Source: a virus
Strand: one strand, 5' to 3'
IMG/VR virus record: IMGVR_UViG_3300028592_000074
Location: 1 to 27,271 of that record
Length of the DNA stretch: 27,271 bases
The notes under the pieces: generated by a model
The model's input: only the letters and a program-made list of their open reading frames with translations
Told to the model about the DNA's origin: nothing
The model's database searches: none
Program-made: the position numbers and the translations under genes
Shown: piece by piece, positions 2,264-17,173 of the stretch
Layout of the letters: every line of letters begins with the position of its first letter
How positions within the stretch are numbered: position 1 is the first letter of the stretch

Positions 2264-2292
2264 GTGATCAGCGCCGAACGCCCGGCTACCCT
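2264..2292 (+). promoter_or_regulatory. Putative rightward promoter for head operon
   Basis: A TACCCT -10 box (2287-2292) lies 38 bases before the portal ATG. The hexamer 17 bases further upstream is GTGATC, a poor -35. TACCCT also occurs in the same role ahead of the capsid gene (13813) and the Tad2-like gene (16897), which supports it. Confidence 0.4.
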
Positions 2293-2329
2293 CACGCCAA
2301 GTGACCGAGCACTGCTGACAAGGGGTGAC

Positions 2330-3943
2330 ATGGCATCCAGGACGCTCGCCCCCGCGCTACGCCGCATGCTCGGCTGGCAGCCACGCAAGAGAGAGACCAA
2401 GGGGTACAGCGGCCGCGTCGGCAGTTCCTGGCGGCAGTACGTCGTCCCCGGCCAGCCCTACGCCACCGACTGGAACACCGACCGCGCCGTCCGCGAGGGC
2501 TTCGAGGTCAACCCGTGGATCTACCGGGCCGTGCACGTCACCGCGTCCAAGATGCTCGGCTGGGACATCGTGCTGCGCCAAGGAGACCCCAAGAAAGGCA
2601 AGCCACTACCTGTCGAGGCCGACCCCACCCGCCTGTTGCACGTGTTCAACATCCAGGCCAACCCGTGGGAACGCGCCAAGGTCTTCCGCTACCGGCTCAT
2701 CGCCCAGTACCTGCTGTCCAGCCGAGGCGTGTTCATCGAGGTCCGCCGCAGCCGCGCGGGACGCATCGCCATGCTCACCTTGCTCGACCCCGACCGCGTC
2801 GAGATCATCCCCACCGTCATCGGCAAGAATTCGGACGGAACCCAGCAGGTCGATCCGCTCGGCGCGTTCCGTGTCACCGTCAACGACGGCACCGGACCGT
2901 ACAACGAACTCCCCCGGTTCAACCCGAAAGCCGACTTCGACGACCAGCCGGGCGCCGTGCTCTGGGTACGCAGCCCGCACCCGACTCTCATGTTCCGGGG
3001 CATGTCGCCGATGCAGGCCGCCGCCATGTCCGCTGACATGGACAAGGCCGCGCGCCTGTACAACCGGCGCTTCATGGACGGCGATGGCCGCCCCGGCGGC
3101 ATCCTGCTGGTCAAAGGCCACGCCCGGGACGATCAACTGGAGCTCGTTGAGGCGCGCGTCAACGGCGGGCCCGGCTCGCAGAGCCGCCTGACCGCCCTGG
3201 AAGGCGACGACCTCCAGTTCGTCGACACCTCCGGCAGCCCCCGTGACACCCAGTGGGGCGACACGATGGATCGGATGCGCAAGGAGGTCAGCATCGCCTT
3301 CGGCGTGCCGGAGTCCGTGCTGGGCGACGCGTCCGGGCGCACGTTCGACAACGCCGACGCCGAGAAGGCGAACTGGCTGGAGGACACCGTCACCAAGCTG
3401 GCCGACCTGCTCGACGACCAGCTCGACATCCTCACCGGACCCTGGGACGACGCGCTGTTCCTGCGTCACGACTACTCCGTCGAATGGGTGCTGGGACGGC
3501 ACAAGCGCGACGAGATCGACCGCGCCAGCACCGACCTGCGAGAAGGCCGGATCACGCTCAACGACTGGCGCGTCATCGCAGGCCTGGACGAGATCGACGA
3601 GCCGTGGGCCCGCGTGCTTTACCTCCCGGCCGGAACCGTGCTCGCCGGTGCCCCCGAGGACGTCGCCATCGTCGCCAAGCTGCCCATGCTCGGCAGTCCG
3701 CAGGCCGCCGACCCCGAGGCCGAGGCGCGACGCGGTGCCAGCGCGGGCAGCCGGATGGGGGTACGCGCCGCCGACAACATCAACTCCGCGAACCGGCTCC
3801 GGCTGGTCAACCAGAACGCGCGCGGTGGCGGCGGGCCGGTCGCCCTGGAGCAGCGTGACGCGCTCGCACTGACCGGCGGAGAGCTGGAGGGTAAGGAGGG
3901 CGGCGCGCGAGCAGGCGGCGACGACGCCGCTGCATGGCGATGA
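2330..3943 (+). CDS. Phage portal protein (HK97 type)
   Basis: 537 residues from the ATG at 2330, preceded by AAGGGG at a 5-base spacing; an in-frame GTG at 2264 is less likely. The portal forms the dodecameric DNA channel at one head vertex and binds terminase and the head-tail connector. Family signs include the early 'NPWIYRAVHV' segment, the 'RGMSPMQAA' clip-region motif, and the 'FGVPESVLGD' followed by 'TFDNADAEKANW' segment that marks the C-terminal part of HK97/SPP1-like portals. The last roughly 90 residues are Gly/Ala-rich and probably disordered. It heads the rightward head operon. No terminase gene precedes it, which is unusual; a divergent conjugative-element-like operon occupies that place. 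Confidence 0.93.
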   Translation: MASRTLAPALRRMLGWQPRKRETKGYSGRVGSSWRQYVVPGQPYATDWNTDRAVREGFEVNPWIYRAVHVTASKMLGWDIVLRQGDPKKGKPLPVEADPTRLLHVFNIQANPWERAKVFRYRLIAQYLLSSRGVFIEVRRSRAGRIAMLTLLDPDRVEIIPTVIGKNSDGTQQVDPLGAFRVTVNDGTGPYNELPRFNPKADFDDQPGAVLWVRSPHPTLMFRGMSPMQAAAMSADMDKAARLYNRRFMDGDGRPGGILLVKGHARDDQLELVEARVNGGPGSQSRLTALEGDDLQFVDTSGSPRDTQWGDTMDRMRKEVSIAFGVPESVLGDASGRTFDNADAEKANWLEDTVTKLADLLDDQLDILTGPWDDALFLRHDYSVEWVLGRHKRDEIDRASTDLREGRITLNDWRVIAGLDEIDEPWARVLYLPAGTVLAGAPEDVAIVAKLPMLGSPQAADPEAEARRGASAGSRMGVRAADNINSANRLRLVNQNARGGGGPVALEQRDALALTGGELEGKEGGARAGGDDAAAWR

Positions 3944-3953
3944 ACTCGCCGTA

Positions 3954-5255
3954 TTGACCGCTGACTCGTTCGTCGTTCGCGAGGCCGCCCCCGATCCCCC
4001 TCCCGGTCCTGAGCGCGACGCGATCATCACGATGAACGAGGCGGCCGCGCATGCCGCCGAGAACGCGGTCACCGGCGTGCTGGAACGGCACCTGGAACGC
4101 GTGATCGGCGTCGTGCTGCAGCGGGCCAGGGGGCCGAAGGCGCGCAAGGGAACCAAGTGGTGGGTTCCAAGTGGAACCGACTCCACATTGGAAGTGAAGG
4201 ATCTCGATACCACCTACGTTGTACCGGACAAGCTGACCAACAGTCTCGCCGACGACATCCGGCCGGTCATCCTCACCATCGCCACCGACGCGGCCGCCGA
4301 CACCGCGCAACGCCTCGGCGAACCCGAGGACATCGCCTCCTATGACACGCAGGAGATCGAGCGCGCCGTCGATGAGGCGATCAAGCTGATCCTCGGTATC
4401 GCCGACCGGCACATCCGTGAACTCCGGCAGGCCGTGCTCGACGCCGACAGCACCGCCGGAGATCTCGACGACCTGCTCGGCCGCATCGAGAAGGCGCATC
4501 GCAAGGGTGGCAACTGGGTGCTGATGGCCGGGCGCACCCTCGCGAACGCGCTGGCCAACGACGCCGCCTATGAACAGGCCCTGCGGCTGGGCTGCACGCA
4601 CGCGCAGTGGGTCAGCAGACGTGACGGCCGTGTTCGCCCCACCCATGTGCGGGCCGACGGTCAGGTGCGCCGGATGGAGGGACGTCTGTTGAAGTTCGGT
4701 ACCCGGTTCAAGGTCGGCAAGTTCAGGCTCCGGCATCCTTGTGACCCCTCTGGCCTGCCGTTGTCCTGGCCGGAGGTCGCCGGTTGCCGATGCAAACTGC
4801 TGTTCCGGCGCCCCGGCGAGAAGGCGCGCGCACTGTTCGAGGTGATCGACCGGTCGGTCCGCGATGGCAGCGCCCCCCGGCGCGCCATCGACGCACTCGC
4901 CATCGCGCTGGCCACGGCGACGGCACTGCCCGACGGCGCCGCTCATACCCCGACCCCCCAGGGGTATCCGCTCGCACCGGCCGCACCGCTGGTCACGCTT
5001 CCCGAGCCGGTCGTTGGCTACCGGCTACTGCCCGACGGCGCCGATGTCATCCCCGGCCAGCAGATAACGATGTCCAGTCAGCTCGTGCTCGGACTCGACT
5101 GGAAAGGCTCTGCCAGCGCGCTCACGCTCGCCGTGCTGGTGCCCGCCGGGACCGTGGTCGCCGCGACCGGCGGTGCGATCATCCTGTCCGGCGGAACCAC
5201 ACTGGAGATCCTCGGCGCCGGAGAGACCGGGGTGCGCGCGCAGGTCGTGGCCTGA
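3954..5255 (+). CDS. MuF-type minor head protein with ART-like C-terminal domain
   Basis: 433 residues if translation starts at the TTG at 3954; the first ATG is at 4032 and neither start has a clear ribosome-binding site. The middle contains a MuF (phage head morphogenesis) domain: about residues 220-285 include 'WVSRRDGRVRPTH' and then 'HPCDPSGLPLSWPEVAGCRC', the usual His/Cys-bearing core. MuF proteins sit inside the head next to the portal. The last roughly 85 residues resemble the C-terminal half of VIP2-type mono-ADP-ribosyltransferases: YR at 356-357, a TMSSQ segment (Ser374/375), an 'LAVLVPAGTVV' strand, and LEIL with Glu418. MuF-ART fusions are known in polyvalent phage proteins. Here the ART domain looks short, and the first Glu of the usual ExE motif is not conserved, so activity is uncertain. 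Confidence 0.82.
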   Translation: MTADSFVVREAAPDPPPGPERDAIITMNEAAAHAAENAVTGVLERHLERVIGVVLQRARGPKARKGTKWWVPSGTDSTLEVKDLDTTYVVPDKLTNSLADDIRPVILTIATDAAADTAQRLGEPEDIASYDTQEIERAVDEAIKLILGIADRHIRELRQAVLDADSTAGDLDDLLGRIEKAHRKGGNWVLMAGRTLANALANDAAYEQALRLGCTHAQWVSRRDGRVRPTHVRADGQVRRMEGRLLKFGTRFKVGKFRLRHPCDPSGLPLSWPEVAGCRCKLLFRRPGEKARALFEVIDRSVRDGSAPRRAIDALAIALATATALPDGAAHTPTPQGYPLAPAAPLVTLPEPVVGYRLLPDGADVIPGQQITMSSQLVLGLDWKGSASALTLAVLVPAGTVVAATGGAIILSGGTTLEILGAGETGVRAQVVA

Positions 5256-5431: not shown

Positions 5432-5447
5432 GACGATGACCGGCATG
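5432..5447 (+). promoter_or_regulatory. Leaderless-start motif upstream of 2H protein
   Basis: GACGAT, then GACCGGC, then ATG. The same arrangement ([TG]ACNNT, seven bases SACCNGC, start codon) recurs at 16897 and 17579, and without a start codon at 26081. If the hexamer is a -10 box, transcription would begin at or next to the ATG at 5445 and the mRNA would be leaderless. No good -35 is visible. Confidence 0.4.
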
Positions 5448-6521
5448 GCCGATGAACACGTTGGGGGCATGGTTGCCCTGATCCCGCGCGCCTCCGATGC
5501 GGAGCAGCTCCGCGTGTCCGGCGGCGAGAAGCTGGACGAGCTCCACCTGACCCTCGCCTATCTCGGTGACGACGTCACCGACTGGACGGCGGACCAGCGC
5601 AACCACCTCACCGCCACCGCGCTGAACGTCGCGCAGTCGGCGGGTGCGCCGGTGCAGGCGCGCGTCATGGCGCACGCCGTGTTCAACCCGGATGGTCACG
5701 CTGATCGCGCTCCGTGCGCGGTCTACCTGGTCGGCGACAGCCGGGCGATCGGTCCGATGCGGGACATGATGCGCGTGGTGGTCGAGCACGTACAGGAACA
5801 GCACGAGCCGTTCATCCCGCACGTGATCGCCGGGTACGGGATACCGGTCGCCCGGCTGAAGTACACCGGGCCGATCGTGTTCGACCGGCTGCGCGTGGCG
5901 TTCGCCGGTGACACCTACGACTTCCCGCTCGGCGAGGTGGACGAGAAGTCGATCGCCGAGGAGTTCAAGGTGGACGTGACGGACGGCCTGACGACGCTGA
6001 CCGAGGACGAGATCGAGTCCAAGGTCATGAGCGCGGATCCGCGTGCGGCGAAGTTGCGCGAGTACTGGGCTCGCGGCAAGGGCCGGGGCAAGTGGGACAA
6101 GTGGCGTGAGCTGCACCGGCATCTGAAGAAGTACGTGAAGAACCCGAACATCCTGGACGGGCTGACCTCGAACATCTACCGGATCGCCAAGGGTCACAAC
6201 CCGCCGCGCGGCAAGAAGGATCTTCAGCTTTCCGAGGCGGAGGTGAAGGCGGCGATGGCGCTGGCGGACCCGGACGCGGACTTCGATCCGGACGCGCTCG
6301 CCGACTGGCTGGACGAGGATGACGAGCTGGACGAGGAGTTCGACGAGAACGATCCGGACCAGGTGTACGAGCGGGCTTTGATCGACGATGTCGACTGGGA
6401 GATCGACGCCGAGGGCGCGCTGGTCCGGGAGGACGAGGACGAGCCGGACGGGGAAGAACTCCCCGACAGCGCGGGTCCGGTCGATCCGGGCGTGAGTCTC
6501 TGGGATCTCGAAGCCGATTGA
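5445..6521 (+). CDS. 2H phosphoesterase-like protein with second conserved actinophage domain
   Basis: 358 residues from the ATG at 5445; an ATG at 5436 in frame is possible, and neither has a ribosome-binding site. The first roughly 165 residues resemble 2H phosphoesterases (2'-5' RNA ligase/cyclic phosphodiesterase superfamily). The first motif 'LHLTLAYLGD' is intact (His34). The second, 'PHVIAGYG' (His126), has Ile where the catalytic Thr/Ser belongs. A second domain around residues 195-270 contains 'SADPRAAKLREYWARGKG', 'KWRELHRHLKKYV' and 'HNPPRGKK', a module I recognise from actinophage head-region proteins but cannot name. The last roughly 85 residues are strongly acidic. It lies directly before the protease fusion. 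Possible roles are a packaged nucleotide-signal or RNA-processing enzyme or an internal head protein; this is inference. Confidence 0.68.
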   Translation: MADEHVGGMVALIPRASDAEQLRVSGGEKLDELHLTLAYLGDDVTDWTADQRNHLTATALNVAQSAGAPVQARVMAHAVFNPDGHADRAPCAVYLVGDSRAIGPMRDMMRVVVEHVQEQHEPFIPHVIAGYGIPVARLKYTGPIVFDRLRVAFAGDTYDFPLGEVDEKSIAEEFKVDVTDGLTTLTEDEIESKVMSADPRAAKLREYWARGKGRGKWDKWRELHRHLKKYVKNPNILDGLTSNIYRIAKGHNPPRGKKDLQLSEAEVKAAMALADPDADFDPDALADWLDEDDELDEEFDENDPDQVYERALIDDVDWEIDAEGALVREDEDEPDGEELPDSAGPVDPGVSLWDLEAD

Positions 6522-6584: not shown

Positions 6585-9500
6585 GTGACCGCGACCCTGC
6601 CGGACGGTATGGAGTACAAGAACGCGATGGCGCAGAGCTGCGCCGATGCCGTCGCAGGCGTGGGAGTCTGGGGCAGCGAGTACCCCGACGAGGACGGCGT
6701 CCGCAACCACATCGTCGCCGTCACCGGCGTACGCGACGAGGTCGGCGACATCATCGTTCCCGGCGCGTTCATCAAGACGCTGCAGCGGCTGACCCCGAAG
6801 GCCTGCATCGGGCACGACTGGAACCGCGCCATCGGCGACCCCGAGGCCATCGAAGAGGTCATGCCCGGCGATCCCCGCCTGCCCCGGGAAGACCGGTTCG
6901 GTAAGCCGTGGAATCCGAGGGCCGGTGCACTGTTCGCGCGCACGCGCTACAACCTGGACAAGAAGGACGGTCGGGAGGCCTACTCCGACGCCAAGTTCTA
7001 CGGCCCCCGTCTCGCCACCTCCATCGGCTACGTCGACCCCAAGGACGACAACGGCAAGCCGCTGCACTCCTACAAGAAGATCGACCCCGACACCGGCCTG
7101 ATGACCCGATTCCTGCCCGAGCTGCAGCTGTTCGAGTACAGCCAGGTCCTGCACGGCGCCCACCTGCTTGCCGGAGGACTCAAGACCAGCATGCCGACGC
7201 GGCTGGAACGCAAGCAGCGCCCGGACATGGAGTTGAAGGTGCGCCTGGTACGCGACTCCTCCTACTGGGGTCTGCCGCTCGGCACCCCGATCCGGCCGGG
7301 CATGAAGCCGCAGGGCCCGAAAGCCCGTCGCCTGGTCGCCGCCGGACAGCAGGCCGACGAGACCGCCGGTGCCGTCGAGGTCGACGCGAACAACCTGCGC
7401 ATCGAACCCACCGCCAAGGGCAAGCAGAAAGGCCCGACGGCGGTCGACACCGCGTACAGCTTCGTCATCGGCATGATCGATGAGGAGCTGGACCCGTTCG
7501 ACGACGAGTTCACCATCGACGACGACCCGAACAACAAGATCAACAAGGGTGAGCCGTACAACCCGCTCGACATCCTGATCGCCAACGCCGTCCCCCCGGC
7601 CGAACTCGAAGAGGACCTGCGCAACGCCGACTGGGACAATGATCGGCTCGGCGACGCGGCCGAACGTCAAGGCGAGATCGATTCGTACATCGCCGACGTC
7701 ACTGACGCCTACCGCGAGAAGTACAACGCCGAACTGGTCCGGCAGAACGACACTGGCGACAGTGAGGTCGCGGACGGGACCCCCAAGATCGAGGGTCAAG
7801 CCGCCGAAGTTCCCGGCGATCAGCAGTCGCAGGAGGCCGGGCCTGACGGTGTTTCCGCCAGCGACTTGACCCCAGGTTCCACTTTTATCGATCCCGATAC
7901 CGGTAACACCGTCACCGTCGACGTCGCCAAGCCGAGTGACAAGTTGCCAGGGCACATGGTCGTGCAGGGCACTGACAGCGAGGGTGAGGTCTACGACGCG
8001 GTTGTGGCCACGGATACCGTGCTGCCTGCCGCGCCGCAACCGCAGAGCAGCAAGCCGACCCCGGAAGAGTGGCAGGCGGCCCAGGCGGACATGGCCGCTG
8101 CCGGACAGCCCGCCGAGGATCCGAACCGGCCGGTCGTCTCCGCTGGCACCGGCCAGCAGGCACCGGCGCAGCAGGGCCTGATCGGTTCGAAGGCCATGCA
8201 CAGCGGTGACCCGGTGACCGTGCGCGCCGTCGACGGCGACACCGCGACCGTGCACAACGCCCGCACCGAGGAGGTCTACGAGGTTCCGGCCGCTGATCTG
8301 CTGACCGGCGGGGCGAGCCCTGATCAGCCGACCACGGTCAAGGTCAACGAAGCGCAGCGTGACGCGCTCGACCTCGCGTTCGGCAGCGGCGAACCGGTCG
8401 AGGTGTCCGGCGCCGAACTGGGCGCCGACGCGCTGATCGTCTCCAACATCGCCGAAGCCGTGTGGACGATCGACACGGCGATCGAGGTACTGGAGGACAA
8501 CCCGGACCGGAAGCGCACGCACGGCCGTGCCCTGCGGGCGATGCGGAACAAGATCGCGAAGATGGCGAAGCCCGGCGAGCCTCTCGGCGGCGGGCGGTCA
8601 GAAGACCAGTCCGCTGCCGCAGCCGAGGGTGAGCCGATCGCGGCACCGGGCGCTGACGTCACCGCGCCCGCGACGATGGAACCCGATGTCGCAGCACCCG
8701 AGGGCGAGACCCCTGAATCCGGGATGGCCGAAGCCCCCCCCGCGCCGGTCGTACCGCCTGTCGGCGATGACGTCGGCCGTTTTCCGGACGGCACCAAGCC
8801 CAGCCCGAAGCTGATCGCCGCACTCGGCGGCGCGACCTGGGTGACCGGCATGAGGGTCTACAGCAGCGGCGGACCCCAGAAGCAGGCCGACGGCTGGATG
8901 GTGAGCGGCCACGCCAACACCCTCTACCCGCTGCACACGAAGAAAGTGGGCACCCAGGCCTTCCCCTCCACTTCGGAGAGAGGTGCGCGCACCAGCTTCC
9001 TGATCAACGAGGAAGGCGCCCGACTGCTCGCGCCCTACCTGCCCAACGGCGGGCAGCGCGACGAAGCCACCACACCGGAAGCGTTGCCGGACAACGGTGA
9101 CGTCACGCCAGAACCGTCTACTGAGGCCGCTCCGGAACGGGGTCACCCAGGAAATCGTCCCGCCACCGGACTGGCTGACCTGTCCGACGCCGAGCTGGAA
9201 AGCCAGCTGGCCGACTCCCGCGCCCAGCTGCAGAAGATCCAGGACCTGGCGACCCGACTGGAAAGCACCGGCGGGGTCACCGACGCCGTACGCGCCGCCC
9301 AGGTCGCGGCCGAGAACCACAACCGCGCACTCGAACAGGAAGCCACGCGTCGTGGCACGGGGGCGCCTGGAGACGCCGCTGGCGGTCCCGTCCCGAACGA
9401 CGGGGAAGCACTTCCTGCCGGAGATGGCGACGGCCTTGTCGAGGACATCGGCCAGGCCCAGACCGAGGCGATCGCCGAAGACGCCGTCATCGAGGAAACC

Positions 9501-12500
9501 GAGCAGATCGGCGCCAGCGAGATCGCCGACGCCGACGAGATCGTCGACGCCGGATTCGGTGTCACCGAGGCGCCTGACGGCGAGTTCGAGATCGACGACG
9601 ACATCGCCGACCGGCAGGACCGCGTCGCCTCCCTGCTCGTCCAGGCCGAAGCGGGCAGCCTCGACCTGTCCCGTGACCGCGTCGGCGATGACCAGCTGCG
9701 CACCACCCGCGCCGACATCGTCGACGAGCTCCGCCTGCAGCAGCACCTCGAACGGCGTCGCACCGGCGAGCAGGCCGTCAGCCGCCAGCGCTCCGACGCC
9801 CAGGCCGCCGACGACCTGGCACCACAGGAAGGCGACAGCGAACCCGCCGCACCCGAGGAGACCGGGCCGAAACCACGTCCCGGTGTCGCTGGTGCCGCCG
9901 AAGATCTCGCCGACGCGCTCGAATCCGGCAGCGACGACCGGATCGACGCCGCGACCGACCGTTTCCGCAAGGCACTGAACCGGTCCCGGTCCGACTCGCC
10001 GATCGTCGCGGAACTGCGCGCCATGCTCGCCCCCGAATCCGGTGCCTACGACCCGGACGCCCTGCGCGACGCCGCCCAGCGCCTGCGCGAGGAGCAGCGC
10101 GCCAAGCGCAACGAGGGCGCCCGGCGGCGACGCACCGCGCGCCGGTTCGAACGCGAACGCCTGCGCTCCCTGCTCGGCCAGGTCGAAGCCGAGATGCGCA
10201 ACCGCGACCTCGACTACGACCCGATCCCCGATGAGGACGGCACCGTCACCCTCGATCTCGCCGTCGCCAAGCCGGTCGTCTGGGAAACCCGCACCGAACG
10301 TGAAAGCTGGTCAGGAACCGACTTCCGTCTCGACGAACTCAACGGAACCGGCTACCAGGCCAGCATCACCTCCTACGGTGACCGGCCCAGCATCCATGGT
10401 GCGCGGACGCCCACCTATGCGTGGACCGTCGTCGCCGACGACGGCGTTGTGCTGGCAACCGGCTCCGGCGCGGCCCCGGACGTCGACAGCGCCCAGACCA
10501 CCATCGAGATCGCGCTGGACACCCAGCGACGCCTCGGCCTGATCCCCGCCGACGCGCAGATCCCGCAGGGCGCCGTGTCCGAAGACACCTCCGCCACTCC
10601 GCACGCCGACATCGTCGACGCCGTGCAGCGCATGCAGCGCAAGATCGACGAGGGTCGCGAGTACAACCCGATCACCGGCCGTCCGGACCCGCTCAACCAG
10701 AACCTCCCCGCACTGCCCGTAGTCGCACCGATCTACATCGACGCCGACCAGGCCCGCAAATACCTGGAAAGCAGGGGTGCCACCGATCGTCACGGCAGCA
10801 AGCTGGTCGAGTCGTACCGCTGGGACACCGCGAAGCTCACCCCGGGCGCCGGTTTGGCCGTGGTCGACGACCTGAAAGGCCAGCCGCAGATCGTGCACAC
10901 CCGCAGCGGCGCCACGTTCGGCGTGATCGGCACCGACCTGGGCAAACTGTCCCGCGCCGACTTGTTGCGGTACGCCACGATCGCCGAGGCCACTCGTGAC
11001 GCCGACGGCAACCTGGTCGACTGGCGGCAGGACGGCCGCGACCTGGCCGCCGACATCAACGGACGGCGATACCCGGCGGCCACGAACAACGGCCACAGAG
11101 GATTGCAGGAGGTCGCGCTCGACCGGCTGACCCGCGAGAAGATCGCCGCCGGGGCGTTCACCCACCCGCTCGTGCTGCGCGGGCACGAGATGATCGACGG
11201 CGTCACCAACCCGACACGGCGCGAGTTCGTGAACGACCAGCACCGCGCACTAGGGCAGATCATCAACGCGCGGTCCGGCAGGGTCGCCCCCGCCGACAAG
11301 AAAACCTTGGACACGGCCAAGGGCGCGCGCGTGCTCGCCGCCATGGGCGCCCCGGACGCGGCCGCAGCGCTGCTCACCCGCCGGGCCGCCGAGCTCGATG
11401 AGCAGTTCGAGGGTGACGCGCCCAGTCACGGCTCCGCGCTACTGCGGTCGCTGGCCACCGGCTACCTCGGCATGTTCTCGCCGGTGCGCTCGCACGGCGA
11501 ACGTGTCGGCGACATGAAGGTCGGCGAACGGCTGTTCCTGGAAGAGCGCTCCGCCGACGGTGGCAAGCCGCAGCTGCGTAGTTTCCGGGCGCTCGCACCG
11601 GCGCGCCGCGACCCCCGGGGCGGGCCGTCTGACCTGATCACGCCGGTGATCGACGAGAAGACCGGCGAGCAGAAGTTCCTGCACACCGATGTCGGCCAGT
11701 TCCGCGTTGAGGACACCGAGGAACGCGCCTACGGCTATAGCCCGCTCGGTGGTGGCCGGTCGCACGGCAACTACGCCGTGGTCGGACCGGGCGAGGAGAT
11801 GCCCGAGACCGTTGATGATCTGGCATCGCGGGCGTTCGACGACGTCGCCGCCATCCCTCAGGACGTGCTCGACGCGGCAGCCGAAGCACTGCCCGAATCC
11901 AGGAGGGAGACCACCGTGCGCCGCGCGGCCGCCGAGGAGGGCCGCCGGGCACCTCGTCGCGGCACCCCGCGTGCGCCCAAGCGGACCGCTGAGCCTCTTG
12001 CCGCACCTGAGCCGGTGCGCAACGAGCAGCAGCTTGCCGAAGCCCAGGGCAGGACACTGGGGGCGTTCCTGGGCATGCCGTTCGAGTACGGCGACACCCC
12101 CACGAACGGATTCGGCAGCATCGAAGCGGCCCGCGAACACCTGGTCGCACTGGAGAACGGACCGGAACCCCGGTCGGCCAGTTCGGCGCGCGCGGTCATC
12201 AAGTTCATCGACGACGGGGAGATGACGCTGTCCCCTGGTGGCATGTTCGCGGTGCACAAGAAGACCGGCTTGGTGACCCACCTGCCGTCGAGTCAGCGCG
12301 TGTGGCCGCCGCCCCCCAGTTCCAGGGCCTCGTTCGAGGACTACGTGCAGGCGGGCGGGCTGGCCAACCAGTCGATCGGCCTGCGAGTGGCGCGCGCCCT
12401 GGAATCCGGGGTATTCGACGGCGAGCAGATCGACTGGTCCGGCGACGGCATGACAGCGGTCACGCAGACCAATGCGATCGGCAAGCGCAACGGCGGATCC

Positions 12501-13736
12501 CACCCACTGCGGACCGCGCAGCGTGCCGCGTTCCTGGACGGCGTGCTCGGCACCTCGAAGAAGCCGCTGGCCGCCGACGCGACCATGTTCACCGGCGCGG
12601 CTGACGGCGCGCTCGACTTCGACGCGCCCAACGCGGAGGCCTTCGACAACCCCGTGGACAAGGTCGTCGACTACGAGGGCAAGAACGGCTACACCGCCGA
12701 CAGCAAGGCCGGGGAGACCACGGCGAAGCGGGTGGCGGTCGAGCTGCGGCTGGTGCAGCCGCTGGCGAAGGCCGCGCCGCTGGACGCGGTGCGCAGGCTG
12801 ACCCGGTTGGCCGACGAGCTGGACGGCAAGACGGTCACCATGCGGGCGACCCGCCGGGACAGTTCGGGCGATCAGACGCTGACGCTGACACCGTCCGACG
12901 ATCTGCGCGCGATGGCGTCGACGATCACGGATGTGTACGACCCGAAGAAGATCAGCACGTCGGCGCTGTTCCGGCAGGCCGGGATGGTCGGCCAGGTCGA
13001 GCTGAACAAGCCGAAGATCAGCTCTGGCCGCACCTGGGAGGACCCGAACGGCGTCGTCGCGCGGCAGGTCGAACAGCAGATCACGGACGCGGGCGGCCTG
13101 CGGTTCTACCGTGACGAGAACGGCATGCTGCATGCCACGTTCGCCGGTGTCGACATCGCTGACGGGCAGCACAACGGGCGCACCTTCGACGGCGACTCGA
13201 TCGCCCTGAACGGGTCGATCAAGCTCGGCCCGGACGGCAGGCTGACCGTGTCCTACAGTCGGGGCAACCGGTTGATGATCATCGATGCGAGTCCGCGTTC
13301 GTGGACGTTCACTTCGGATGTCCCGGACGATGGGGACACCGACGGGGACAGCAACGGCTCCGAAACCGAGTCTCCGCAGGCAGGAGCAGGCAGGGAAAGG
13401 GACAGCGGAGAGGACGCCGGGACGGATCCGCAGAACGAAACAGGGGCGCCGGAGCAGGCGGACGATCCGGCCGTGATCGCGGAGAACCGGATCAGGGAGC
13501 TGTACGCGGAGATCGCGGACGGCCCGCAGGACTTCGTCCGGATCGCGCGCATCCGGGCGCGCCTGGGCGACATGGACAAAGCGACCGTGGACGCGGCGCT
13601 GCTGGCGATGATGGAAACCGGCCTGGTGCATCTCGCGCCCGAATCCAATACCAAGGTGCTCACCGACGAGGACCGGGCCGGGGCATTGCGGGTGGGAAGC
13701 GAGGACATGCACCTCATCGCAATCGAAGAAGAATAG
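6585..13736 (+). CDS. Prohead protease fused to a giant polyvalent protein (2383 aa)
   Basis: The start is the GTG at 6585, five bases after GGGAGAA. Residues 1 to about 205 form an HK97-type (S78) prohead protease: 'GDIIVPGAF' near 53, His77 in 'IGHDW', Ser146 in 'ATSIGY' and Glu184 in 'LFEYSQVLHGA', fitting the His/Ser/Glu triad proposed for the family. Free proteases are about 200 residues; here some 2180 more follow without a break. The extension has acidic and Pro-rich linkers, a heptad-like helical stretch (about 862-925), Arg-rich helical segments, several globular mixed alpha/beta regions I do not recognise, and an acidic disordered stretch. The C-terminal winged-helix-like domain (about 2296-2383) contains 'FVRIARIRARLGD' and ends in 'MHLIAIEEE'. 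This matches polyvalent proteins: multi-domain products packaged in the head and delivered with the DNA. The protease would mature the capsid encoded next and may cut its own tail. Confidence 0.85.
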   Translation: MTATLPDGMEYKNAMAQSCADAVAGVGVWGSEYPDEDGVRNHIVAVTGVRDEVGDIIVPGAFIKTLQRLTPKACIGHDWNRAIGDPEAIEEVMPGDPRLPREDRFGKPWNPRAGALFARTRYNLDKKDGREAYSDAKFYGPRLATSIGYVDPKDDNGKPLHSYKKIDPDTGLMTRFLPELQLFEYSQVLHGAHLLAGGLKTSMPTRLERKQRPDMELKVRLVRDSSYWGLPLGTPIRPGMKPQGPKARRLVAAGQQADETAGAVEVDANNLRIEPTAKGKQKGPTAVDTAYSFVIGMIDEELDPFDDEFTIDDDPNNKINKGEPYNPLDILIANAVPPAELEEDLRNADWDNDRLGDAAERQGEIDSYIADVTDAYREKYNAELVRQNDTGDSEVADGTPKIEGQAAEVPGDQQSQEAGPDGVSASDLTPGSTFIDPDTGNTVTVDVAKPSDKLPGHMVVQGTDSEGEVYDAVVATDTVLPAAPQPQSSKPTPEEWQAAQADMAAAGQPAEDPNRPVVSAGTGQQAPAQQGLIGSKAMHSGDPVTVRAVDGDTATVHNARTEEVYEVPAADLLTGGASPDQPTTVKVNEAQRDALDLAFGSGEPVEVSGAELGADALIVSNIAEAVWTIDTAIEVLEDNPDRKRTHGRALRAMRNKIAKMAKPGEPLGGGRSEDQSAAAAEGEPIAAPGADVTAPATMEPDVAAPEGETPESGMAEAPPAPVVPPVGDDVGRFPDGTKPSPKLIAALGGATWVTGMRVYSSGGPQKQADGWMVSGHANTLYPLHTKKVGTQAFPSTSERGARTSFLINEEGARLLAPYLPNGGQRDEATTPEALPDNGDVTPEPSTEAAPERGHPGNRPATGLADLSDAELESQLADSRAQLQKIQDLATRLESTGGVTDAVRAAQVAAENHNRALEQEATRRGTGAPGDAAGGPVPNDGEALPAGDGDGLVEDIGQAQTEAIAEDAVIEETEQIGASEIADADEIVDAGFGVTEAPDGEFEIDDDIADRQDRVASLLVQAEAGSLDLSRDRVGDDQLRTTRADIVDELRLQQHLERRRTGEQAVSRQRSDAQAADDLAPQEGDSEPAAPEETGPKPRPGVAGAAEDLADALESGSDDRIDAATDRFRKALNRSRSDSPIVAELRAMLAPESGAYDPDALRDAAQRLREEQRAKRNEGARRRRTARRFERERLRSLLGQVEAEMRNRDLDYDPIPDEDGTVTLDLAVAKPVVWETRTERESWSGTDFRLDELNGTGYQASITSYGDRPSIHGARTPTYAWTVVADDGVVLATGSGAAPDVDSAQTTIEIALDTQRRLGLIPADAQIPQGAVSEDTSATPHADIVDAVQRMQRKIDEGREYNPITGRPDPLNQNLPALPVVAPIYIDADQARKYLESRGATDRHGSKLVESYRWDTAKLTPGAGLAVVDDLKGQPQIVHTRSGATFGVIGTDLGKLSRADLLRYATIAEATRDADGNLVDWRQDGRDLAADINGRRYPAATNNGHRGLQEVALDRLTREKIAAGAFTHPLVLRGHEMIDGVTNPTRREFVNDQHRALGQIINARSGRVAPADKKTLDTAKGARVLAAMGAPDAAAALLTRRAAELDEQFEGDAPSHGSALLRSLATGYLGMFSPVRSHGERVGDMKVGERLFLEERSADGGKPQLRSFRALAPARRDPRGGPSDLITPVIDEKTGEQKFLHTDVGQFRVEDTEERAYGYSPLGGGRSHGNYAVVGPGEEMPETVDDLASRAFDDVAAIPQDVLDAAAEALPESRRETTVRRAAAEEGRRAPRRGTPRAPKRTAEPLAAPEPVRNEQQLAEAQGRTLGAFLGMPFEYGDTPTNGFGSIEAAREHLVALENGPEPRSASSARAVIKFIDDGEMTLSPGGMFAVHKKTGLVTHLPSSQRVWPPPPSSRASFEDYVQAGGLANQSIGLRVARALESGVFDGEQIDWSGDGMTAVTQTNAIGKRNGGSHPLRTAQRAAFLDGVLGTSKKPLAADATMFTGAADGALDFDAPNAEAFDNPVDKVVDYEGKNGYTADSKAGETTAKRVAVELRLVQPLAKAAPLDAVRRLTRLADELDGKTVTMRATRRDSSGDQTLTLTPSDDLRAMASTITDVYDPKKISTSALFRQAGMVGQVELNKPKISSGRTWEDPNGVVARQVEQQITDAGGLRFYRDENGMLHATFAGVDIADGQHNGRTFDGDSIALNGSIKLGPDGRLTVSYSRGNRLMIIDASPRSWTFTSDVPDDGDTDGDSNGSETESPQAGAGRERDSGEDAGTDPQNETGAPEQADDPAVIAENRIRELYAEIADGPQDFVRIARIRARLGDMDKATVDAALLAMMETGLVHLAPESNTKVLTDEDRAGALRVGSEDMHLIAIEEE

Positions 13737-13889: not shown

Positions 13890-15242
13890 ATGAGTGGCAC
13901 CATCACGCTCGACAAGAAGAGCCTGCGTCAGACCCTCGCCACCAAGTCGGCCGAGATCGACGCGTTCACCAAGAACGGCATCAAGGACGAGAGCGGCAAC
14001 GGCGACCTCGTCGTCTCCGTCGAGGACGCTCGCACCTTCCGCAAGCTCATGAACGAGTGCAAGGAACTGCGGGGCCTGCTCGCCGACCTCGAAGGCCACG
14101 CCGAGATCAAGGCCTACCTCGACGACCCCGGCAGCGCCCCCCTGGCCGCCCAGCAGGGCGCCGCCCAGCTCGTCGCCCCCCGCCAGTACAAGAGCGTCGG
14201 CGAGCGGTTCGTCGAATCCAAGGCGTTCAAGGAGCGCGCCACCAACGGCATCATGTCCGACTCCTTCCTGGTCGACGAGGACCTCACCTCGCTGGAGAAG
14301 AAGGACATCTACACCGCCGCCGGTGGCACGCTCACCCGGTTCTCGTTCGGCCGCGTCGAGCAGGAGCCGATCGTCCCGCGCCCGTACCGCACGGACCGTG
14401 TGCGCGATCTGTTCCCGGTCGCCAACACCAACGCCAACCTGATCGAATACCTGCGCGTGCTCGGCTACCTGGACGGCGAGAACAACGCCCGCACCGTGCC
14501 GGAGCGTGAGACGGATTCGCCGACCTCGGTTTTCGGCCTGAAGCCGCACACGCGGCTCAAGCTCGCCCCCGCGCAGGCGCCCATCCGCACGATCGCCCAC
14601 TACGAACTCGCCCACCGCAACACCCTCGACGACGAACCGCAGCTGCGCTCGATCATCGACACCGAGCTGCTCTACGGCCTGCGGCTCGTCGAGGACGACC
14701 AGGTCCTCAACGGCGACGGCACCGGCGAGAACCTGCTCGGCATCATGCGCACGCCGGGCATCCAGCTCTACCCCGGCCCGGGCTTGGGCTACGGCCAGGC
14801 TGGTACGCCGGTCAAGGAGAACGACACCAAGGTCGACGCCGTCCGGCGTGCCGCGACCCGCGTCATGCTCGCCTACTTCTCTCCGACCGGCGTGGTCCTC
14901 CACCCGTTCGACTGGGAGGAGATGGAGCTCACCAAGGACAAGAACCTCAACTACATCCTCGCGATCAACGTCGCGATCGGTGCCGAGAAGAGGATCTGGC
15001 AGATGCCGGTCGTCGCCACCCCGGCGATGAACCAGGGATCCTCGCTGATCGGCGCGTTCGGCCTGGGCGCGAAGATCTACGACCGCCAGCAGTCCAACAT
15101 CAGGGTCGCCGAGCAGCACGACGACCTGTTCATCCGCAACGCGATCGCGATCCTGGCGGAGCAGCGGATCGGCTTGACCGTCTCCCGCCCGGAGTCGTTC
15201 GTCAAGGTGGACCTGACCACCGCCTACGACAACACCCCGTGA
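13890..15242 (+). CDS. Major capsid protein (HK97 fold)
   Basis: 450 residues from the ATG at 13890, with GGGAGG about ten bases upstream. The N-terminal roughly 100 residues are charged and helical, as expected of the delta/scaffold domain removed by the prohead protease, followed by an Ala/Gln-rich linker suited to cleavage. The rest follows the Phage_capsid (HK97) pattern: 'SDSFLVDEDL', the 'RLKLAPAQAPIRTIAHYEL' strand region, 'LLYGLRLVEDDQVLNGDGTGENLLGI' (in part), 'VVLHPFDWEEMEL', and the closing 'AEQRIGLTVSRPESFVKVDL'. It is the structural shell protein and the likely substrate of the protease domain encoded just upstream. It is framed by its own promoter candidate and a terminator. Confidence 0.93.
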   Translation: MSGTITLDKKSLRQTLATKSAEIDAFTKNGIKDESGNGDLVVSVEDARTFRKLMNECKELRGLLADLEGHAEIKAYLDDPGSAPLAAQQGAAQLVAPRQYKSVGERFVESKAFKERATNGIMSDSFLVDEDLTSLEKKDIYTAAGGTLTRFSFGRVEQEPIVPRPYRTDRVRDLFPVANTNANLIEYLRVLGYLDGENNARTVPERETDSPTSVFGLKPHTRLKLAPAQAPIRTIAHYELAHRNTLDDEPQLRSIIDTELLYGLRLVEDDQVLNGDGTGENLLGIMRTPGIQLYPGPGLGYGQAGTPVKENDTKVDAVRRAATRVMLAYFSPTGVVLHPFDWEEMELTKDKNLNYILAINVAIGAEKRIWQMPVVATPAMNQGSSLIGAFGLGAKIYDRQQSNIRVAEQHDDLFIRNAIAILAEQRIGLTVSRPESFVKVDLTTAYDNTP

Positions 15243-16896: not shown

Positions 16897-16912
16897 TACC
16901 CTGACCTGCGTG
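16897..16912 (+). promoter_or_regulatory. Leaderless promoter of the Tad2-like gene
   Basis: TACCCT (16897-16902), seven bases GACCTGC, then the GTG start codon at 16910. A -10 box at this distance places transcription start at the GTG, so the message would be leaderless. No clear -35 is visible. The same layout recurs at 5432 and 17579. Confidence 0.55.
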
Positions 16913-17173
16913 GACTACTCCGGAGCCATCCATTTCGTCGCCAGCGGAAAACGCGCCCGGCGCCCCTCCTGGCCGGTCGGCGCGTTCCTGATCCTCGTAC
17001 CCGGCTCCACCATCACCGTGGACGCTGACCGGCCACTCGGACAGGCCGCGCCCGAACTGGTCGGCCAGCGGGTGCGCTACAGATCGCACGTCGACTACTT
17101 CGAGAACGGCGAACTGGAACCCTGGCAGTCCGAGAACGACGACCGGAACGCACGCGACTGGGAGATCATCTGA
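16910..17173 (+). CDS. tad2: Tad2-like anti-defence protein (DUF2829)
   Basis: 87 residues from the GTG at 16910. The whole length follows the DUF2829/Tad2 pattern: an N-terminal 'YSGAIHFVASGKRARRPSW', then 'GAFLILVPGS', 'DRPLGQAAPELVGQRVRY', a His-containing 'SHVDYF', 'GELEPWQSENDD' and 'ARDWEII'. Tad2 is a small phage protein that binds and sequesters the cyclic ADP-ribose-type signal of Thoeris defence, and some relatives hold other cyclic nucleotides. The conserved W-G-F-L-VPGS and DW segments are present, so the fold is likely intact; which ligand it binds cannot be read from sequence. It is transcribed from its own promoter, divergent from the Cys-rich gene, and its stop overlaps the next start (TGATG). 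Confidence 0.85.
   Translation: MDYSGAIHFVASGKRARRPSWPVGAFLILVPGSTITVDADRPLGQAAPELVGQRVRYRSHVDYFENGELEPWQSENDDRNARDWEII

Follow-up and report, generated by a model that had tools for sequence, protein, structure and literature searches.

Introduction

For phages beyond T4, P1, N4 and the phiKZ group, little is known, to our knowledge, about head-borne proteins and the routes by which they are loaded. Polyvalent proteins of phages and conjugative elements that contain assemblin-like peptidases have been described, and in the survey of these proteins the peptidase was always C-terminal (Iyer et al. 2017, PMC5512222). The head of P1 packages about 45 copies of DarB, a protein of about 2,000 residues, and Pro cleaves DarA (PMC12810830, PMC9024508). 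The ejection proteins of T4 and SPN3US are cut by proteases at a motif that the capsid protein also has (PMC5694885).

The present analysis concerns a giant prohead protease fusion encoded in a stretch of 27,271 nucleotides, hereafter the window (positions 1 to 27,271 of the IMG/VR virus record IMGVR_UViG_3300028592_000074). We take this virus to be a virus of actinobacteria.

Results

A prohead protease with a 2,165-residue extension

The protease-cargo fusion protein is encoded by a single uninterrupted frame of 2383 aa (6585-13736; all features are on the + strand unless stated otherwise) that starts with a GTG preceded by AGGGAG, and the alignment of its three closest homologues begins exactly at this GTG. 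This frame is not due to chance, since the stop-free frames of 200 shuffled versions of the window reached at most 522 codons (versus 2383 codons in the ORF) and since GC3 is 0.82-0.90 throughout. Residues 1-1094 were found again at 100% identity in a separate contig (L007) and are therefore not an assembly error. The ORF is confirmed as real, and the initial annotation, which had described a 2383-residue prohead protease fusion with a protease of less than a tenth of the chain, was right on both counts, the measured share being 7-8% (residues ~26-200). The extension comprises residues 219-2383 (2,165 residues, 230 kDa).

On sequence homology, residues ~26-200 (6660-7184) are a prohead protease of the HK97/S78 type. 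This domain is 38-44% identical (E down to 2e-24) to annotated head maturation proteases of the Gordonia phages DalanDe, GMA6 and Gray, of the Brevibacterium phage Cantare and of the Streptomyces phage Gilgamesh, and its predicted catalytic residues, His77 (6813-6815) and Ser146 (7020-7022), are invariant across 20 aligned sequences. The protease gene sits among head genes, between those of the portal protein (2264-3943) and of the major capsid protein (13890-15242). AF2 gave a pLDDT of about 85-94 over the domain, whose best fold matches in the PDB were T4 gp21 (TM 0.50 of target, probability 0.94, E 0.08) and herpesvirus assemblins, a resemblance that is below significance since no match reached E ≤ 0.001. 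The window protease scored 19.8 bits, under the curated TIGR01543 cut-off of 59, and its domain was unmatched in the Pfam scan of the window protein; relatives standing in the same alignment (L020, L022, L027 and DalanDe) pass PF04586.

A candidate cleavage motif shared with the capsid protein

The idea of a cleavage motif, [LIMFV]-E-x-K (hereafter fExK), arose from the tag junctions described below, and the capsid protein provided a check that is independent of the cargo. When about 70 related capsids are aligned, the column before the mature domain is mostly [LIMFV]-E-x-K↓[DS] (↓, predicted cut), with variants such as YGxK, and the capsid protein of the window fits this maturation column with a predicted site LEKK↓DIYT at residues 135-138 (14292-14303). 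The HK97 capsid protein is cut after Lys103, and in a PDB alignment the mature N-terminus of HK97 falls no more than about 2 residues from LEKK↓DIYT. The motif is enriched 5.7x in 87 protease ORFs (seven control motifs: 0.39-1.03x) and 4.6x in 70 capsids, where the control motifs range from 0.15 to 2.9x and some are thus raised too. Since it marks the capsid maturation point and is enriched in protease ORFs and capsids, fExK is very probably the cleavage site of the fused protease. The motif alone does not ensure cutting, because it is also found within the DarB region of sister fusions.

Strict fExK sites of the window fusion are found only at residues 9, 207 and 215; they flank the protease, and there are none in the cargo. 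MEYK (residues 9-12; 6609-6620), where all sister fusions have LEYK, LEWK, LEFK or LEVK, is the predicted cleavage site at the N-terminus of the protease, and LERK (207-210) and MELK (215-218) are predicted self-cleavage sites (7203-7238). The latter two lie in or adjoin a linker of low AF2 confidence (residues 197-216, pLDDT <50) that is probably flexible according to the model, the protease itself being confident. The linker behind the protease thus carries motifs matching the capsid maturation site, in agreement with the proposal of the initial annotation that the extension is fused to a prohead protease. Its expectation of several processed fragments fits the sequence less well: one unit of ~230 kDa is more likely because fExK is absent after residue 218. 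The absence of the motif from the window cargo is not significant (0 sites versus 0.95 expected, chance 0.39), and the avoidance of fExK in giant ORFs (0.45x) is not specific, since fE.R gave 0.48x in the same set.

Candidate sites are also present in other head proteins of the window, whose gene order is portal, MuF and 2H-phosphoesterase, then the protease-cargo fusion, then the major capsid protein. They are LEGK↓E near the C-terminus of the portal protein (residues 541-544), LEVK↓D at residues 79-82 of the MuF-like head protein (3954-5255) and IESK↓V at residues 193-196 of a 2H-phosphoesterase-like protein ('RNA ligase' PHROG; 5436-6521), in which the enzyme domain lies on one side of IESK and a small domain with a very acidic tail on the other. 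Elsewhere in the window, an ORF located between the capsid and tail genes (16910-17173) matches the Pfam family Tad2-like (Thoeris anti-defence 2; E 2e-10) and is likely, by this homology, a second anti-defence gene. A DUF2637 protein (E 1e-12) is encoded at 1088-2095 on the - strand, opposite to the head genes.

A tag behind the cleavage site

Directly behind the ExK site of the fusions stands a tag, VRDxxYWGxPxGTPI (YWG tag), which in the window protein is VRLVRDSSYWGLPLGTPIRPGMKPQG (residues 219-244; 7239-7316). The YWG tag also opens separate head-block genes of Gordonia phages, which encode ADP-ribosyltransferases (GMA6, Gray and others) and HTH proteins of ~1,000 aa, and it is found at profile residues 23-69 of a PHROG family of ADP-ribosyltransferase toxins (weak match, E 0.12). 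A variant, VRTxxGxxxYGxPIG, is carried by proteins of DalanDe, Cantare, Gray and GMA6. An ExK lies within about 11 residues upstream of 26 of the 35 distinct tags, compared to 2.5% of random windows, these 35 rows being not fully independent though on otherwise unrelated proteins. A second tag, HPRDxxGRF, follows ExK in two of its eight occurrences and is not claimed as general.

Thirteen fusions built on one plan

A scan based on the protease alignment collected 72 viral loci, and more were added by a scan for the tag. One plan is common to thirteen related fusions, which range from 1,505 to 3,644 aa. They are the window protein, L167 (= L017/L018), L019, L020, L027, L159-L165 and L166 (= L022), with L161 and L162 both counted despite their near-identical plans. 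The protease is N-terminal in 13/13, and the plan opens with fE[YFWV]K close to the N-terminus and with the S78 domain; an ExK site (present in most) and the tag just behind it come next, followed by variable cargo, a conserved helical module (S8+S9a) and more cargo. The window protein is colinear over its whole length with those of two other viruses, L017/L018 (63% identity) and L019 (45%), and compared with these nearest relatives it has an extra segment (about 533-700) and the C-terminal domain (2300-2380). By a simple estimate at high GC, its dN/dS against L018 is 0.20-0.81, below 1 in all regions and lowest in the tag region (201-260) and in S8+S9a. Beyond L017/L018 and L019, alignment-derived patterns found no close relatives of the cargo in viral contigs or bacterial genomes; L160 came to light afterwards, by its tag.

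Other arrangements were also observed. A 1,282-aa protease fusion devoid of tag (L025:9965-13810) has a weak match to a Hint domain (E 0.17) at residues 335-403. An ORF of 2,690 aa containing the protease is carried by a Phycisphaerae MAG (L103:9938-18007), which suggests, since this locus is outside Actinomycetota, that the habit of giant fusions arose more than once. In Gilgamesh, the protease ORF gp52 (L015:32165-34090) has a NUDIX-like box, read by eye, GGHLDDGEDALAAALREWAEETG, with fExK sites before and behind it (LEVK, LEYK, IEHK, IEAK), an arrangement that would suit the excision of a small enzyme; the protease ORFs of Streptomyces prophages (L059-L086) were noted together with gp52. 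The separate Gilgamesh protein gp48 (L015:16979-30853; 4,624 aa) has one fExK only, at residue 23, LEVK↓AARRKWNPALHPRD, and its N-terminus looks like a cleavable leader on a separate giant cargo.

Cargo of the window protein

Behind the tag, the cargo has a helical segment (261-400; 7365-7784) conserved in the closest relatives L017/L018 and L019 and a small beta domain (429-475; 7869-8009) that weakly resembles EF-P and SH3-like barrels in the PDB. The segment at ~533-700 (8181-8684), found in the window protein only, lies inside a disorder-rich spacer, and the small domain that comes next (725-825; 8757-9059) is also present in L017, in L019 and, weakly, in L132. The module S8+S9a (950-1215; 9432-10229) is, besides the protease and the tag/site, the sole part common to all 13 fusions. 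It includes a very basic helix of ~50 residues (pI 11.7) and has no match among 50,697 annotated phage records; a likeness by eye between S9a and the C-terminal tails of small proteases was not significant (best E 0.09).

Farther on, a repeat domain, S10, occurs in two copies, at 1382-1490 (core 1402-1480; 10728-11054) and 1842-1960 (12108-12464). It is also repeated in separate giant ORFs (>2,000 aa) located upstream of the protease in Streptomyces prophages, and it recurs in Gilgamesh gp48. Between the two copies lie a helical (1500-1640) and a beta (1640-1770) domain (11082-11894) with a confident AF2 core and no match in PDB or BFVD, and behind copy 2 lie helical and beta domains (1960-2245; 12462-13319) for which no relative was found outside L017, L019 and L160. 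The chain ends with an HTH-like domain (2300-2380; 13482-13724), the one that the initial annotation had called winged-helix-like, which is not in the sister fusions. This domain matches proteins of actinobacterial plasmids (Streptomyces, Amycolatopsis, Nonomuraea and others), some annotated as helix-turn-helix, and three to four occurrences of it are found in one protein of a Thermobispora phage-plasmid, 3842 aa long and encoded next to the portal gene. The Thermobispora phage-plasmid (L014:11840-23368, NZ_CP039125.1) also has an Rmf-like gene and a separate prohead protease.

AF2 modelling of residues 1092-2244 gave a mean pLDDT of 73, with 317 residues above 90, and a structure search of this region against PDB and BFVD returned no match. 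Single-sequence scans of the window cargo against Pfam, PHROGs and NCBIfam gave nothing usable and no family beyond the protease. Because so many residues of this region are modelled above 90 and match nothing in PDB or BFVD, the cargo domains are probably folded, of no recognised kind, and not filler. The profile and structure searches proposed in the initial annotation were thus rewarded for the C-terminal domain, related to plasmid proteins, and yielded neither a family nor a solved fold for the other parts; its division of the extension into globular and disordered segments was broadly right. The extension is a conserved multidomain cargo rather than repeated or disordered filler, and the separate ORFs in which relatives carry parts lie within the head gene block and not among non-virion genes.

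Cargo of the sister fusions

Within the same protease-tag-module frame, the cargo slot of the sister fusions holds a DarB-like antirestriction region (L159, L161 and L163; 1274-1337 bits) with methyltransferase and helicase matches, a ParB-like domain at residues 285-358 with an ATPase match (L165), or HExxH motifs (metallopeptidase-like) near the C-terminus (L020 and L166). DarB-type methylase-helicase, ParB-like and HExxH modules are textbook parts of polyvalent proteins. The window protein is likewise a large multidomain chain encoded amid virion genes; family scans and fold searches found in it no recognised disparate effector domains. For lack of such domains and of any fold match, we do not file it as a proven member of the polyvalent proteins. 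The proposal of the initial annotation that it is one is therefore upheld by the sister fusions and not by any recognised family or fold in the window cargo itself. Overall, the architecture and homology behind this proposal are well supported, and we infer packaging, cleavage and biochemical activity.

Discussion

We consider it fairly probable that the window protein is a self-releasing virion cargo carrier, whose cargo serves as a polyvalent protein in the next host. The N-terminal S78 prohead protease would bring the attached chain of ~230 kDa into the prohead. At head maturation, it would cut after the Lys of fExK at the sites predicted from sequence and comparison, namely the delta domain of the capsid protein (LEKK↓D), its own N-terminus (MEYK↓N) and the positions behind the protease (LERK↓Q and MELK↓V). 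Residues 219-2383 would be freed as one intact polypeptide beginning with the YWG tag and would accompany the DNA up to its ejection into the next host. The protein thus probably takes 230 kDa of cargo along into the new head and sets it free there, a load whose scale is feasible because P1 packages ~45 DarB copies and its DarA is cut by the prohead protease. The role of the cargo, which is suggested by slot homology and not by the window's own domains, would most likely be to protect the entering DNA or to serve early takeover, in view of the DarB-like, ParB-like and HExxH modules that occupy the same slot in sister fusions. Since sister viruses have recognised anti-restriction proteins there, the fusion seems to be a self-releasing loader of anti-defence proteins that are injected.

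More tentatively, and with the odds somewhat against it, these features could belong to a general cargo code, in which a Lys-specific fExK cut shared with the capsid is combined with a retained YWG tag, the two marking proteins for the head and for delivery. In one lineage the protease would have become the carrier, giant anti-defence proteins being loaded one-for-one and released by self-excision, and the window cargo would be a new injected class with unknown folds.

The extension could instead be mainly a structural or scaffolding internal core that aids prohead assembly and is not injected, S8+S9a being its working part. Phages often have protease-scaffold fusions, S8+S9a is the only module of the extension found in all 13 fusions, and its 50-residue basic helix may bind DNA, capsid or portal. 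However, the capsids here retain a delta domain of ~138 residues, the usual scaffold in HK97-like phages, and relatives manage with short proteases devoid of S8+S9a. Since, moreover, the remaining extension varies and includes DarB, ParB-like and HExxH modules without structural role, we regard a scaffolding core as unlikely.

Still less probable is that the fusion is a convenience of expression, the cargo being cut off before assembly to act as an ordinary late or regulatory protein in the producing cell. The resemblance of the C-terminal domain to plasmid HTH proteins would suit such a regulator, but S78 proteases normally do their work within the prohead, the tag is common to other proteins encoded in head gene blocks, and a one-to-one fusion with a head protease is an odd route to a soluble regulator. 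That the extension is low-constraint filler or decaying sequence is already disfavoured and seems very improbable: its spacers are rich in disorder and variable in length and its dN/dS against L019 reaches 0.9-0.97 in some parts, but the 13 fusions run up to 3,644 aa without stop or frameshift, the blocks 981-1215 are 79-81% identical to L018 and the AF2 model of residues 1092-2244 has its 317 high-confidence residues. A carrier that releases its own cargo is thus the reading that we retain.

A readable cleavage motif and tag would allow the injected proteins of many actinobacterial phages to be listed from sequence. The fusion puts loading, cutting and delivery into one gene, in which they can be tested together, and its cargo slot, in which unrecognised modules stand in some sister viruses where others have DarB, points to new candidate anti-defence proteins.

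Compared to known systems, the fusions resemble the polyvalent proteins with assemblin-like peptidases (PMC5512222) in being very large, multidomain and encoded with virion genes, in having a peptidase for self-processing and, for the sister fusions, in holding DarB-type methylase-helicase, ParB-like and HExxH modules. Unlike in those proteins, the peptidase lies at the N-terminus, is apparently the prohead protease of the phage itself and has a cleavage site and a tag behind it, and the window cargo is devoid of any catalogued domain. The Dar system of P1 (DarB, DarA, DdrB and Pro; PMC9024508, PMC12810830) similarly places a giant antirestriction protein in the head beside a prohead protease, and its DarB has an N-terminal packaging signal needed for recruitment; however, protease and cargo are separate genes in P1 and one chain here. 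T4 gp21 and SPN3US gp245, with their Alt-type internal or ejection proteins, also have one protease motif common to the capsid protein and injected proteins (PMC5694885), but there the cut is after Glu ([LI]xE, AxE) and the substrates are products of separate genes, whereas the cut predicted here is after the Lys of fExK and the protease is joined to its cargo.

Related arrangements are found in annotated phages. Gp27 of the Gordonia phage DalanDe (1,633 aa) is also an S78 protease fused to cargo; it has fExK sites and an N-terminal tag, but its cargo is N-terminal to the protease, which lies in the C-terminal half. Gp52 of the Streptomyces phage Gilgamesh ('hydrolase', 641 aa) is also an S78 protease fused to cargo and has fExK sites, but this cargo is small and NUDIX-like (by eye), and the giant protein of 4,624 aa is encoded by a separate gene. 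A literature search covering papers outside subscription journals found no description of a fusion between an N-terminal prohead protease and DarB. Taken as a whole, polyvalent proteins with a C-terminal peptidase were already known, and what appears new is a prohead protease placed N-terminally, with its site and tag, on a cargo of the polyvalent type.
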